A stretch of DNA of 5,159 bases from Candidatus Fermentibacterota bacterium. Lineage in GTDB: Bacteria > JAFGKV01. The notes under the pieces were generated by a model. That model searched no databases. It had not been told where the DNA came from and saw nothing but the letters and a program-made list of their open reading frames with translations. This document shows positions 1,704 through 5,159 of this stretch, piece after piece (the stretch's first letter is position 1; the number at the start of each line of letters is the position of its first letter). The DNA lies in NCBI GenBank assembly GCA_030620115.1, contig JAUXFG010000227.1, positions 1 to 5,159 on the forward strand, written 5' to 3'. A program made the position numbers and the translations under genes.

Positions 1704-1721
1704 GGGCTCACGCAAAAATAA
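1704..1721 (+). repeat. left terminal inverted repeat of the ISAzo13 element
   Basis: GGGCTCACGCAAAAATAA here matches, in reverse complement, GGGTTGACGCAAAAACAA at the right end (3717-3734). There are 15 matches in 18 positions, including the unbroken block ACGCAAAAA. The likely transposase-binding core is this A-rich block. Confidence 0.8.
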
Positions 1722-1938
1722 CTTGTCAAACTGAAGTGCAGTTCTAACAGGAATATTCCGGTTCTCGCACGCTTGCATACTCTTTTCGTTCGAAATCCGC
1801 CCCTTTTCCGGCTTGATTGCTTCTTTGGGGACGCTGTGCGAGGAGAGAGTGAGAATCCTTTCACTTCTTTATTGAAGAGATCTCGCGATTTTGGACTGAA
1901 AAGGCACAAGAACCCCCTTTTTGTGGCAGATTCTCTTG
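1722..1938. other. non-coding left part of the ISAzo13 element
   Basis: No plausible gene is seen on either strand. The stretch holds a perfect TTGACA facing outward at 1729-1724 (minus strand), a perfect 10-bp palindrome GGAATATTCC at 1750-1759, a small CTTC/GAAG hairpin at 1865-1878 and an 8-bp palindrome GAGATCTC at 1877-1884. The right end has no matching long non-coding arm, so this part may hold extra transposase-binding or promoter sites. That role is inference. Confidence 0.5.
1724..1729 (-). promoter_or_regulatory. outward-facing consensus -35 (TTGACA) in the left IS end
   Basis: The minus strand reads TTGACA from 1729 to 1724, a perfect sigma-70 -35 box pointing out of the element toward the DUF2202 operon. 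A 17-bp spacer ends exactly at the element edge, so any -10 would be formed by the boundary and flank (1706-1701, CCCTAG). That match is poor, so this copy may make little or no hybrid promoter. Confidence 0.4.
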
Positions 1939-1993
1939 CATAATGTTAGAATACGCCTTAGAATTGAGTTGAAAGGCGAATATCAACATTATG
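1939..1993 (+). promoter_or_regulatory. two-tier inverted repeat covering the transposase start codon
   Basis: CATAATGTT (1939-1947) is the exact reverse complement of AACATTATG (1985-1993), whose last three bases are the transposase ATG. Nested inside, CGCCTT (1954-1959) pairs with AAGGCG (1973-1978), the only Shine-Dalgarno-like bases before the ATG. Two six-base internal strands separate the stems, and the loop is 13 nt. In RNA this would hide both ribosome site and start codon. CATAAT (1939-1944) in the left arm also resembles a -10 box. Transcripts from it would start near 1951 and lack the outer left arm. Confidence 0.6.
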
Positions 1994-2755
1994 AGAACGG
2001 TTGTTTACTGCACGGAACTTCTCAGGTCGTTTTTGGAGGAGCGTAGGATTGCCACACTATCTGAACTGAAGAACGCTCTGGGCACCGATGTCGATATGAC
2101 GGTCTTCAGAAAGCTTCGAGAATTGACGTACCGAACAAGTTACTCTCATCGCGGAAAGTATTACACCTTGGATGAGATTGCTTGTTTCGACACTCAAGGG
2201 TTATGGTTCTTTCAGTCCATAGGCTTCTCTGTACATGGGACTCTGGTGAAGACGGCAAGAGCCCTGGTGGAGATATCGGAGAGCGGACTGACCGCGGCTG
2301 AACTGAAGCACGTACTGAAAGCTGAGGTGAGAGAGCCTCTCCTGCGACTCTTTCGGAGGAAGGAGCTTCATCGAGAGAAGATGTCGGGGGTGTACGTGTA
2401 CTTCTCAAATGAACCCTTCGGGCGAAGAAAGCAGGTGTTGCTTCGCAGGGACCGGGAATCTGAGACGAGTGATGGGTTGGAGAGTCTCAGAGGTGAGCTG
2501 TTGGCGCATGAGCTGAAAGCAGCCGTTATCATTTTCTTCAGTTTGCTTGATGAGAAGCAGCGGCGGTTGTATGCAGGATTGGAATCGCTGAAACAGGGAT
2601 ACGGGGGAGACAGCAGGATAGCGGATCTCTTGGGTTTGGATCAGCATACGGTGGCGAAAGGGCGGCAGGAGCTTCTGAGTCAGGATTTTGAAGTAGATCG
2701 GGTGCGCAGAAAAGGAGGAGGGAGATCGTCGGTGAAAAAAAAACGCCGGAAGTGA
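1991..2755 (+). CDS. ISAzo13 transposase, N-terminal part with extra winged-helix domain
   Basis: These 254 residues are the first reading frame of the element. Residues 187-245 (DEKQRRLYAGLES, then GYGG, a helix-turn-helix-like IADLLGLDQHTVAKGRQEL and VRRKGGGR) match the usual N-terminus of ISAzo13-family transposases. Residues 1-165 are additional. Two segments look like winged helices, one around 18-60 (DMTVFRKLRELTYRTSYSHRG then KYY) and one around 98-138 (GLTAAELKHVLK to GVYVYF). I recall the first motif in unnamed proteins tied to transposons. These segments probably add DNA binding. An in-frame TGA at 1970-1972 limits the start to the ATG at 1991, which lies inside an inverted repeat. 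The frame ends four codons after a run of nine A, overlapping the catalytic frame by 4 bp. A -1 shift at the run joins the two. Confidence 0.85.
   Translation: MRTVVYCTELLRSFLEERRIATLSELKNALGTDVDMTVFRKLRELTYRTSYSHRGKYYTLDEIACFDTQGLWFFQSIGFSVHGTLVKTARALVEISESGLTAAELKHVLKAEVREPLLRLFRRKELHREKMSGVYVYFSNEPFGRRKQVLLRRDRESETSDGLESLRGELLAHELKAAVIIFFSLLDEKQRRLYAGLESLKQGYGGDSRIADLLGLDQHTVAKGRQELLSQDFEVDRVRRKGGGRSSVKKKRRK
2712..2724 (+). promoter_or_regulatory. internal Shine-Dalgarno-like purine tract
   Basis: AAGGAGGAGGGAG lies inside the first transposase frame. It is too far (about 30 nt) from the GTG at 2752 to be its normal ribosome site. Its distal GGAGG (2717-2721) ends 13 nt before the A run, about the range in which upstream Shine-Dalgarno elements stimulate -1 frameshifting, as in E. 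coli dnaX. Confidence 0.5.
2735..2743 (+). other. A9 slippery site for -1 frameshift
   Basis: Frame 1 reads GTG AAA AAA AAA CGC. Slipping back one base on the A run gives KKK-TPEVIARIEELM, which restores the sequence expected of the family between GGGR and the DDE domain. The joined product is 574 residues (1991-2743 joined to 2743-3714). Nine A's also allow RNA-polymerase slippage. No obvious downstream hairpin or pseudoknot is seen. Confidence 0.75.
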
Positions 2756-3714
2756 TAGCGAGAATAGAAGAGCTGATGAAATATGAGACGGCAGGAGACC
2801 CCATGACGGGGCTGAAATGGACGAGAAAGACTACCGAAAAGATCGCTGAGGAGCTTGAATCGATAGGAATCACGGTGAGCCCGAACACCGCTGGAAAGCT
2901 GTTGAAGAAGCTGGGATTCTCCCTGAGAGTCAATCACAAGAAAATCGCGCATGGGGGCAAGAGCAGATCGCGCAAGGATCAGCAGCAGCGTGATCGGCAG
3001 TTCAGGTATATCGGTGAGCTCCGCGAAAACCATGCCCAGAGAGGTCATCCCAGCATAAGCGTAGACACCAAGAAGAAGGAACCGATCGGCAACTTCAAGA
3101 ATCCCGGGGTGGAATACCGTCGGGAGCCGAGGCTGGTGAACGATCATGACTTTGCAAGCTATTCCACCGGCAAAGGCGTTCCCTACGGGATATATGACAC
3201 GCAGAGAAACAAGGGAATGGTGTTCGTCGGCACTACGTTTGACACAGCGGATTTCGCCGTGGAGTGTATTGAGAAATGGTGGCGTAAAGAAGGGCAAAAG
3301 CACTATCAGCAGAGCAAACGCGTGTTGATACTGGCAGATGGCGGGGGAAGCAATGGCTCACGTTGTCGCCGCTGGAAACTCGGCATCCAGGAGAAACTCT
3401 GCGACCGCCACGGCTTGGACGTAACTGTGGCACACTATCCACCTGGAACCTCCAAGTGGAATCCGATTGAGCATCGGCTATTCGGTGAGATAAGCAAGAA
3501 CTGGTCCGGCACACCGCTAGATTCCTATGAGACGATGCTGAAGTTCATTCGTACAACCAAGACGAAAACCGGGCTGAAGGTGAAAGCCTATCTTGTACGG
3601 AAGAGCTACGAAAAAGGCAATAAGGTTCCTGACGAACAAATGGCACAGATCAAACTCGAGCGACATGCGACATTCCCTGAGTGGAACTACACAATCAAGC
3701 CCAGGAAAATGTGA
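2752..3714 (+). CDS. ISAzo13-family DDE transposase catalytic domain
   Basis: These 320 residues form the RNase H-like catalytic part of the transposase, which cuts and joins DNA at the element ends. The triad is visible: D105 in SISVDTKKKEPIGNF, D196 in LILADGGGSNG and E240 in PPGTSKWNPIEHRLF. Other family hallmarks are GDPMTGLKWTRKT (15-27), PYGIYD (144-149), FAVECIEKWW (168-177), TKTGLKVKA (271-279) and a C-terminal EWNYTIKP. The N-terminal 60 residues look like a second helix-turn-helix (KLAEEL/VSPNT-like). The drawn start is GTG at 2752, but family alignment runs through upstream T-P-E, so the real product is more likely the -1 fusion with the frame ending at 2755. Independent re-initiation at GTG (ATG/GTG-TGA overlap) would give a protein lacking the first DNA-binding domains. 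The sequence is uninterrupted and ends 2 bp before the right terminal repeat. Confidence 0.92.
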   Translation: MIARIEELMKYETAGDPMTGLKWTRKTTEKIAEELESIGITVSPNTAGKLLKKLGFSLRVNHKKIAHGGKSRSRKDQQQRDRQFRYIGELRENHAQRGHPSISVDTKKKEPIGNFKNPGVEYRREPRLVNDHDFASYSTGKGVPYGIYDTQRNKGMVFVGTTFDTADFAVECIEKWWRKEGQKHYQQSKRVLILADGGGSNGSRCRRWKLGIQEKLCDRHGLDVTVAHYPPGTSKWNPIEHRLFGEISKNWSGTPLDSYETMLKFIRTTKTKTGLKVKAYLVRKSYEKGNKVPDEQMAQIKLERHATFPEWNYTIKPRKM

Positions 3715-3716
3715 AC

Positions 3717-3734
3717 TTGTTTTTGCGTCAACCC
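3717..3734 (-). repeat. right terminal inverted repeat of the ISAzo13 element
   Basis: The minus strand reads GGGTTGACGCAAAAACAA from 3734 to 3717. It pairs with the left end at 15 of 18 positions. A fourth G at 3735 makes the exact outer edge uncertain by one base. Confidence 0.8.
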
Positions 3735-3737
3735 CTA
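3735..3737. repeat. right target-site duplication (CTA)
   Basis: This is a direct copy of the CTA at 1701-1703 beyond the right terminal repeat. If the edge is moved one base outward, it becomes TA. Confidence 0.65.
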
Positions 3738-3916
3738 GCACTACAGCGCAGCTTCCAGGATAGGCAAAGAATCAAGTAGATGATAGACTCCTCACCGGCA
3801 CTTTCGGGTGAGGGCGCGACTCTGTGGTGATCCGGATCAGATCTGAAAGAAGGTCTGATTCGGGAACACGAGAGGTGCGCCCACGCGGACAGGGTGTGGG
3901 GGAGAGGGGTTAGAGC
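3738..3916. other. structured non-coding leader before the DUF4338-transposase gene
   Basis: No gene is seen. The stretch must contain the junction between the old upstream region of the DUF2202 operon and the left end of the next transposon, but that junction cannot be fixed without the transposon's other end. It holds a 7-bp stem CCTCACC/GGTGAGG (3790-3796 with 3807-3813), a 12-bp stem (3832-3843 with 3852-3863, loop TGAAAGAA), and GGGCGC/GCGCCC (3812-3817 with 3877-3882), which could enclose the second hairpin. No T run follows, so these are not standard terminators. A GGAGAGGGG purine tract at 3901-3909 precedes the ATG at 3917. Confidence 0.5.
3832..3863 (+). repeat. 12-bp stem hairpin in the leader
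   Basis: CCGGATCAGATC pairs with GGTCTGATTCGG across an 8-nt loop. As RNA all 12 positions pair, two of them G-U. As DNA it is an imperfect inverted repeat. It could be a transposon-end recognition hairpin or a regulatory leader structure, and the sequence does not decide between them. Confidence 0.55.
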
Positions 3917-5159
3917 ATGGCTGAGTACGATCGCCGCATGGTTGAGCAAAAGGGTGAGGGCGCCGGTATTGATACGACAGTGGTGGAAGGGTCTCTGTCG
4001 GAGTTGGGGGACATTCGTCTGGAGCGGGCAAGCGGGAATGCTTTGAGTGGTCTGTGGAATGCCCTGGTGAGGGAGTACCACTATCTGGGTCATAGGAGGA
4101 TTGCCGGCAAGCGGATGAAGTACCTCGCCTTTGCCGGATGCAGAGCGATAGCGGCGCTGAGCTGGAAGTCCGGGTGTCTGCGTCTTGAGGCGAGAGACTG
4201 CTTCATTGGCTGGTCGGATGAGCAGCGAAGGGAATACGTGAAGCATGTACTGAACAACAACCGGTTTCTGATTCCGAGCTGGATTCGGGTCAAGAATCTG
4301 GCTTCCCATCTTCTTGCGCGGGGCACGAAGGTGATTGTGCGGGATTGGGAGCAGGAGTATGGGGTGAAGCCGTGGGTGTTGGAGACTTTCGTGGATCCGG
4401 CGAGATATCGGGCGACGAGTTATCGAGCGGCGGGGTGGGGAAATGTCGGACGGACGAAGGGATACGGGAGGGTCGGAGGGAGCTATGAGTATCACGGATC
4501 GTTCAAGGAGGTGTACGTTTATGTTGTAGAACAAGGTTTTCGGGGAATCATTGGCTGCCGGCAACGTCCTTTTCTCTGGAAGTGCCCACTACAGAAGAAG
4601 GAAGAGGCAGATGTCATGACGATACAGGAAGCGGACTACAACCCCGCGCTGATAGACTGGGAGGGGCTGACCCCGGAGGTGACAAAACAGATAGCGGAAC
4701 ACCTGGTGGTGTTTCACCGCGAGTTTGACGAGGCGTTCTGCCGAGTCGAGCAAGGCGTTCTGGGGCAACACTATTTGCAAGGATTGCTGGGAAACGTCAG
4801 TCGCAAGAACGTGGAAGCGATGGCCGTACAGTATGTGGGAGAGTCGCGCGTTCGGGCGTTGCAGAGCTTCATGACCAGCGGCCGGTGGGACGATCTGGTG
4901 ATGCTGGGGAGAGCGCAAGCGATGTTGGCCGGGCTCATAGCCGAAGAGAACGGGATGGTCACGTTAGATGAGTCGGACATACCCAAGAAGGGCACAGAAT
5001 CTGTTGGGGTCGCCAGACAATACTGCGGGAATACGGGCAAGAGGGACAACTGCCAGGCGGGTGTCTTTCTGGGGTATACCGGCAGCAAGGGCTACGGTCT
5101 GTTGGATCGAGAGTTGTACATGCCCCAGGCATGGTTCACCCCGGAGTATTCAGAGCGTC
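3917..5159 (+). CDS. DUF4338 (DruA-type) domain fused to IS701-family transposase, 3' end cut
   Basis: The frame is open for 414 codons and runs off the window. Residues about 35-205 match DUF4338, the family of the Druantia anti-phage protein DruA: LVREYHYLGHRR (50-61), FIGWSDEQRR (96-105), NNNRFLIPSWIRVKNLASHLL (113-133), LETFVDPARYRATSYRAAGW (155-174), VGRTKGYGR (177-185) and a closing VYVYVV. A linker with C214 and C223 follows. From about residue 253 the sequence is IS701-like: IAEHLVVFHREFDEAF, YLQGLLGNVSRKNVE, then TLDESDIPKKG with the probable first catalytic Asp D351, SVGVARQYCG and GKRDNCQAGVFLGY. The remaining catalytic Asp and Glu lie beyond the edge. An in-frame TAG at 3911-3913 limits the start to ATG 3917, preceded by GGAGAGGGG. 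The DUF4338 part may help recognise DNA or regulate transposition. That is inference, as its biochemical activity is not established. Confidence 0.88.
   Translation, partial: MAEYDRRMVEQKGEGAGIDTTVVEGSLSELGDIRLERASGNALSGLWNALVREYHYLGHRRIAGKRMKYLAFAGCRAIAALSWKSGCLRLEARDCFIGWSDEQRREYVKHVLNNNRFLIPSWIRVKNLASHLLARGTKVIVRDWEQEYGVKPWVLETFVDPARYRATSYRAAGWGNVGRTKGYGRVGGSYEYHGSFKEVYVYVVEQGFRGIIGCRQRPFLWKCPLQKKEEADVMTIQEADYNPALIDWEGLTPEVTKQIAEHLVVFHREFDEAFCRVEQGVLGQHYLQGLLGNVSRKNVEAMAVQYVGESRVRALQSFMTSGRWDDLVMLGRAQAMLAGLIAEENGMVTLDESDIPKKGTESVGVARQYCGNTGKRDNCQAGVFLGYTGSKGYGLLDRELYMPQAWFTPEYSER
3917..5159 (+). mobile_element. IS701-like transposon carrying a DruA-type domain (partial)
   Basis: The element is inferred from its transposase. 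The left boundary lies somewhere in 3738-3916 and the right end is outside the window, so no terminal repeats or target duplication can be assigned. It lies directly beside the ISAzo13 element in the same orientation, making a small cluster of mobile elements upstream of the divergent redox operon. Confidence 0.7.

Follow-up and report, generated by a model that had tools for sequence, protein, structure and literature searches.

What does a domain named after DruA of the Druantia anti-phage system do at the head of a transposase? The question is raised by a 5,159-nucleotide stretch of DNA from Candidatus Fermentibacterota bacterium (assembly GCA_030620115.1, contig JAUXFG010000227.1), here called the window, which is an entire contig (C193) of a 4.1 Mb, 296-contig metagenome-assembled genome (MAG). 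It carries the left part of an insertion sequence (IS) whose transposase begins with a DruA/DUF4338 domain. The answer that we favor, with moderate confidence, is that this domain is a Mom-type DNA base acyltransferase acting locally with the transposase in an IS701-type element.

A DruA domain fused to an IS701-type transposase

Both parts of the protein lie in one unbroken open reading frame (ORF; 3917–5158, forward strand, 414 aa) that is still open at the contig end. Residues 35–189 match Pfam DruA/DUF4338 (PF14236; E 5e-25, 88.7 bits against a cut-off of 27), and residues 272–409 match Pfam DDE_5 (PF13546; E 8e-25, far over the cut-off). The ORF is a true fusion of a DruA/DUF4338 domain and an IS701-type DDE transposase, as a preliminary description made from the letters alone had reported, and the motifs of both families that it quoted are present. 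The contig stops before the C-terminal half of the transposase and the right end of the element; the incomplete protein reaches 130 bits (E 1e-37) against the NCBIfam IS701 model, whose cut-off is 150, and a full-length relative (L089) scores 271 bits. The window holds the first aspartate only of the DDE triad, presumably D351 by alignment; full-length relatives retain D, D and E.

The same two-domain order occurs at 10 other loci, nine with a single frame (L010, L065, L082, L085, L089, L097, L098, L099 and L115) and one with a frame change (L105), several of them complete elements bounded by terminal inverted repeats (TIRs). The complete 641-aa fusion of L010, on a contig of a gammaproteobacterial MAG, is 45–47% identical to the window protein, and full-length fusions share 45–48% identity with L010 over a span that includes the domain junction. 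A full-length model of L010 (predicted local distance difference test, pLDDT, 74, from a shallow alignment) comprises two domains whose relative placement is unreliable; residues 18–198 resemble the phage Mu protein Mom (Z 11.8) and residues 246–641 Tn5 transposase (Z 23.8). Between diverged pairs of fusions, the ratio of nonsynonymous to synonymous substitution rates is 0.20–0.29 in the Mom-like part and 0.10–0.40 in the transposase part, which places both domains under purifying selection. An assembly or sequencing join at about 4600–4680, conceivable in a short MAG contig that ends within the ORF, is rejected as exceedingly improbable, since the junction recurs in independent genomes and in complete elements that have matching TIRs along with target duplications, and the tree puts the window inside the IS701-fusion clade (support 100/97).

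The left end of the element is of the same type. IS701-type elements use the 4-base target YTAR; in the window CTAG stands directly before CACTACAGCGC (3735–3749), which places the element start at 3739, 178 bases upstream of the ORF, in a target of this type. L010 carries CACTACAGCGC at both ends with a TTAG flank on each side, and TACTACAGCG forms the ends of L089, L097, L099 and L115, the first three having target duplications TTAG, CTAT and TTAG, of which CTAT deviates from YTAR at the last base. The element shares with the IS701 family a DDE transposase domain, a YTAR-type 4-base target duplication and a short TIR. The N-terminal domain sets it apart: ordinary transposases of the family, such as the one on contig C81 of this genome, are without it. 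In its own genome the DruA-IS701 element is single-copy, YTARCACTACAGCGC occurring once, at the window's left TIR. Of the terminal repeats that the preliminary description had proposed to look for, the left one lies at 3739, and the right half of the element, searched for in the genome assembly, was not found there.

Kinship of the fused domain to Mom of phage Mu

An AlphaFold2 (AF2) model of the window domain, built with 16 related rows, has a mean pLDDT of 83 and a GNAT layout. Among PDB entries it comes closest to Mom of phage Mu (8bv8), with a Foldseek E of 3e-8 and a VIA-align Z of 15.3 over 173 residues (model residues 30–224) against 12.8 for the next-best structure. A profile of 60 transposon copies matched a profile of 11 Mom proteins at 98.0% (E 2e-13, 164 columns), while shuffled and reversed profile controls gave 0.1–1.4%. 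A sequence search of solved structures returned no match for either the window protein or the 60-row profile, Mom being reached there by fold only. Judged from the model and the profiles, the DruA/DUF4338 domain of the transposon copies is a GNAT fold homologous to Mom; one sentence in the literature calls DUF4338 a GNAT domain (PMC10853773). A phage protein, L177, bridges the two groups by matching Pfam Mom at 2e-23 and the DruA profile of the transposon copies at 5e-20. In this large protein (L177:2729–4348) the matching domain is C-terminal, and the N-terminal part looks, by eye, like a zinc finger or HNH domain.

The resemblance extends to the pocket. In a joint alignment of 73 transposon copies, the counterparts of Mom H58, R111 and S124 are kept in 73/73, D149 (as D or E) in 71, Y159 in 70 and Y59 in 67; the window keeps all six (Table 1). 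These residues are among the most conserved of a family whose mean column identity is about 32%. The entry 8bv8 bears the title 'inactive mutant S124A', and the substitution in it falls on exactly this conserved serine, the need for S124 being read from the title and that for the other five residues from conservation only. Mom acylates N6 of adenine with acyl-CoA as the donor (PMC7824862). Like the window domain, it combines a GNAT fold and these pocket residues with a tie to a transposable element; unlike it, Mom comes from a late phage gene of its own, which has a dedicated activator (Com), and acts on the phage genome, whereas the activity of the window domain, fused to an IS transposase as its relatives are fused or adjoining, is a predicted one.

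Transposase partners, Druantia relatives and the adjacent element

Genomes were sampled around two phyla and chosen by Pfam score: 345 came from the phylum to which a Desulfobacteraceae MAG belongs (53 with a PF14236 match) and 398 from that of a gammaproteobacterial MAG (17 with a match). A single-contig genome, G336, has six matches. Surroundings were taken for nearly all good matches, and transposases were classed by cluster profiles, Pfam and NCBIfam. In these genomes the DruA-type module is coupled to at least seven IS families, either by fusion (IS701, IS4/Tn5-type, IS1634 and ISAs1, the last also as a next-door gene) or through an adjoining gene (IS66, ISKra4 and an IS1182-like set that scores under the NCBIfam cut-off). 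A DDE transposase either includes or lies at most 900 bases from about 69 of the 80 transposon-clade frames; this count takes in duplicate copies as well as L102 (IS1634) and L081 (ISAs1), which were added via Pfam and NCBIfam. To our knowledge, the described IS66 set consists of tnpA, tnpB and tnpC only; in IS66 elements with tnpB and tnpC, several DruA copies are placed between the two, and tnpB-druA-tnpC is a frequent order.

The window's genome holds three further PF14236 genes. Two are fusions to Tn5-type (IS4 family) transposases: L006 is complete, 761 aa long and bounded by 46-base TIRs, and L005 has a frame that stops early. The third, L007, is a stand-alone 293-aa druA before an IS66 transposase gene, both within 24-base TIRs. 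Elsewhere, L055 and L056 are 99% identical copies with druA within the unit, each with its own 8-base target duplications, and L057 and L058 likewise have druA within a repeated unit with its own target duplications. The druA gene usually sits inside the mobile element. TIRs sought around ISAs1 fusions and stand-alone copies were not found, and plasmids and annotated phages held almost no transposon-type DruA copies. The earlier proposal that the domain works with DDE transposases is supported by the seven IS families, the position inside TIR-bounded elements and the purifying selection.

The domain appears to have switched partners among IS families. The approximately unbiased (AU) test, which we count in support, rejected one origin of all IS66-linked copies (p 4e-63) and one of all ISAs1-linked copies (p 5e-32), for groups named from the same data. 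Stand-alone and Tn5-type versions share an extra conserved N-terminal region with invariant R, C, W, R, L and P. A 963-aa frame with no Pfam match that overlaps a DruA gene on the opposite strand (L053:4721–7609, minus strand) resembles stand-alone DruA proteins in their N-terminal region of about 75 aa and nowhere else. L063, a 5.5 kb contig, holds ISKra4-type and IS66-type DruA elements back to back, their druA frames about 24 bases apart. In different genomes, the fusion transposase resumes in an overlapping second frame at L103, L106, L107 and L114 (ISAs1) and at L105 (IS701), for which programmed frameshifting is a possible explanation. The transposon-clade druA loci that are without a transposase (L070, L071, L072, L074, L075, L076, L077 and L092; L072 additionally holds a BrxC/D-like gene) may have been domesticated.

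Druantia DruA belongs to the same Pfam family as the window domain, but has longer C-terminal parts and is accompanied by other Druantia genes. Its profile is homologous to that of the transposon domain (97.4%, E 1e-11), whereas comparison with the Mom profile gave no detectable similarity (0.5%). In the columns of the Mom residues, Druantia DruA has W, S, mostly V, G, a residue other than D, and Y; the alignment is less sure in this region, and the loss is near-uniform over nine sequences. As far as these alignments go, Druantia DruA seems to have lost nearly all of the Mom residues that the transposon copies keep. Neither the window nor the Tn5-type fusions match the DruA models of PADLOC, and an IS66-linked copy reaches 18 bits. 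Neighboring Druantia genes (the large helicase and others), which genuine Druantia loci do show, were found neither in the window, where the contig ends just downstream, nor at the complete DruA-IS701 loci. Full-length defence-type DruA also lies beside HerA-like (DUF87) and NurA-like genes in L059 and L061, and in L059 next to a type III restriction-like helicase as well.

DruA-like proteins are also borne by Synechococcus phages (PMC12774648). The phage-borne ones in our data (L164–L176) are encoded by stand-alone genes of a separate clade, and one set retains all Mom residues but the Asp. The tree, with Mom as the outgroup, has long branches and a weak root. In it, the 73 rows of transposon copies form their own deep branch (support 92/94), Druantia-type DruA and one phage set a separate one (100/99), and another phage set a third (99/98). 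The preliminary description had supposed that defence DruA was recruited from transposons, and had named a tree with the transposon copies as a single late offshoot of defence DruA as one that would contradict it; under this weak root neither group is nested in the other, which leaves the recruitment without support and the offshoot unseen. Seven phage contigs (L165, L166, L167, L170, L171, L172 and L176) each have two PF14236 genes spaced by about 2 kb, one of about 410 aa on the Druantia side with the Mom residues lost and one of about 250 aa keeping most of them; the two may form an active/inactive pair.

The features of the window are collected in Table 1. Immediately upstream of the DruA-IS701 element, an ISAzo13-type IS (1704–3734, with CTA on both flanks) is inserted at its border. 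The ORFs of this IS (1991–2755 and 2752–3714) overlap over a nine-A run in a −1 frame relation, which suggests a programmed frameshift; ORF1 (254 aa) matched no Pfam family.

Table 1. Features of the DruA-IS701 element in the window (residues of the fusion protein; Mom in 241-aa numbering).
Feature	Positions	Strand	Basis or remark
Target-site flank CTAG, of the IS701 type (YTAR)	3735..3738	.	sequence
Left TIR of the DruA-IS701 element, CACTACAGCGC	3739..3749	+	matches relatives' ends
DruA-IS701 insertion sequence, left part; rest beyond contig end	3739..5159	+	TIR
Fusion ORF	3917..5159	+	414 aa, 3' end missing
Predicted Mom-like GNAT domain (Pfam DruA/DUF4338), about aa 30–224	4004..4588	+	Pfam, AF2 model, PDB match
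H55-Y56, counterpart of Mom H58-Y59	4079..4084	+	alignment
R116, counterpart of Mom R111	4262..4264	+	alignment
S130, counterpart of Mom S124, the site of the S124A change in 8bv8	4304..4306	+	
D160, counterpart of Mom D149	4394..4396	+	alignment
Y169, counterpart of Mom Y159	4421..4423	+	alignment
IS701-type DDE transposase domain, N-terminal part, aa 272–409	4730..5143	+	Pfam DDE_5, NCBIfam IS701
D351 in TLDESDIPKKG, presumed first catalytic Asp by alignment	4967..4969	+	

Proposed function of the fused domain

Two features speak for our preferred reading, a base acyltransferase that works locally with the IS701-type transposase. The Mom-type pocket is kept at a mean column identity of about 32%, which argues for catalysis, and the fusion to transposases in four IS families argues for action on the DNA that the transposase holds and not genome-wide. 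We infer catalysis, the base modified, the site and the purpose alike. The fused domain would be an active enzyme carried by the transposase to its DNA, where bases at or beside the element ends, or in the flanks, would be acylated locally. Such a modification would probably control or protect transposition, by analogy with adenine methylation at other IS elements, or alternatively shield the element from host nucleases. Dam adenine methylation regulates IS10 and IS50.

Several observations weigh against this reading. As the window's own protein is cut off, its transposase could be either intact or incomplete. The protein has no match to Pfam Mom (PF25680), and L005 scores 17.6 bits, under the cut-off of 27.1, so the domain is called Mom-like and is not filed as a Mom member. 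Activity is a prediction for every member of the family, GNAT folds acylate proteins and small molecules too, and the conserved residues could instead serve DNA or cofactor binding. For eight transposon-clade copies, neither TIRs nor a transposase of the classes tested, at most 900 bases away, were found.

The preliminary description had offered end recognition as a role. We consider it unlikely that the domain serves only to bind DNA, recognizing element ends or targets without catalysis and with the GNAT fold as a mere scaffold, even though it occurs with transposases that differ in end sequence and the extra N-terminal region that stand-alone and Tn5-type versions carry could bind DNA. The residues that it has in common with Mom belong to the family's most conserved, Druantia DruA shows how their loss looks, and the Tn5-type fusions are already equipped with a DNA-binding domain of their own (PF14706). 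Because the Mom residues are kept in transposon copies and not in Druantia DruA, DNA modification is preferred over pure end recognition as a first guess. Somewhat less likely still is a DNA-modifying cargo that guards the whole replicon or host against restriction or phages, outside the transposition reaction. Mom does shield Mu DNA from host restriction enzymes (PMC6483171), and the phage sets and Druantia DruA are tied to genome conflict; yet a global role needs no fusion to a transposase, such as is seen with IS701, IS4, ISAs1 and IS1634, and a PADLOC scan of the fusions gave no defence model. Acylation of a protein, such as the transposase or a DNA-bending protein of the host, as a means of regulating activity is improbable: most GNAT relatives in the structure list acylate proteins or small amines, but the DNA-modifying Mom is closest by fold, profile and residues, ahead of protein acetyltransferases (Z 15.3 against 12.8).

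Carried beyond the IS701-type element, the local acyltransferase reading becomes more tentative. The domain might be a widespread and mobile DNA-modification module, repeatedly coupled to unrelated DDE transposases and marking their ends, so that at least seven IS families would have their own epigenetic control of transposition and Druantia DruA would be a relative without the active site; we regard this wider picture as possible, though doubtful as a whole.

In the open-access literature searched, against which, with the databases named here, novelty was judged, no paper was found that connects DUF4338/DruA with transposases or with Mom. Should the domain be active, insertion sequences would have a base-modifying enzyme of their own built into the transposase, and we did not find such a tie of DNA modification to transposition described in that literature. 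The Pfam family 'DruA' would divide in two, one branch having a Mom-type active site and the Druantia branch lacking it, and labeling every DUF4338 protein as a 'Druantia anti-phage system protein' is misleading. The role of DruA in Druantia thereby becomes directly testable, as an enzyme or as a dead fold.
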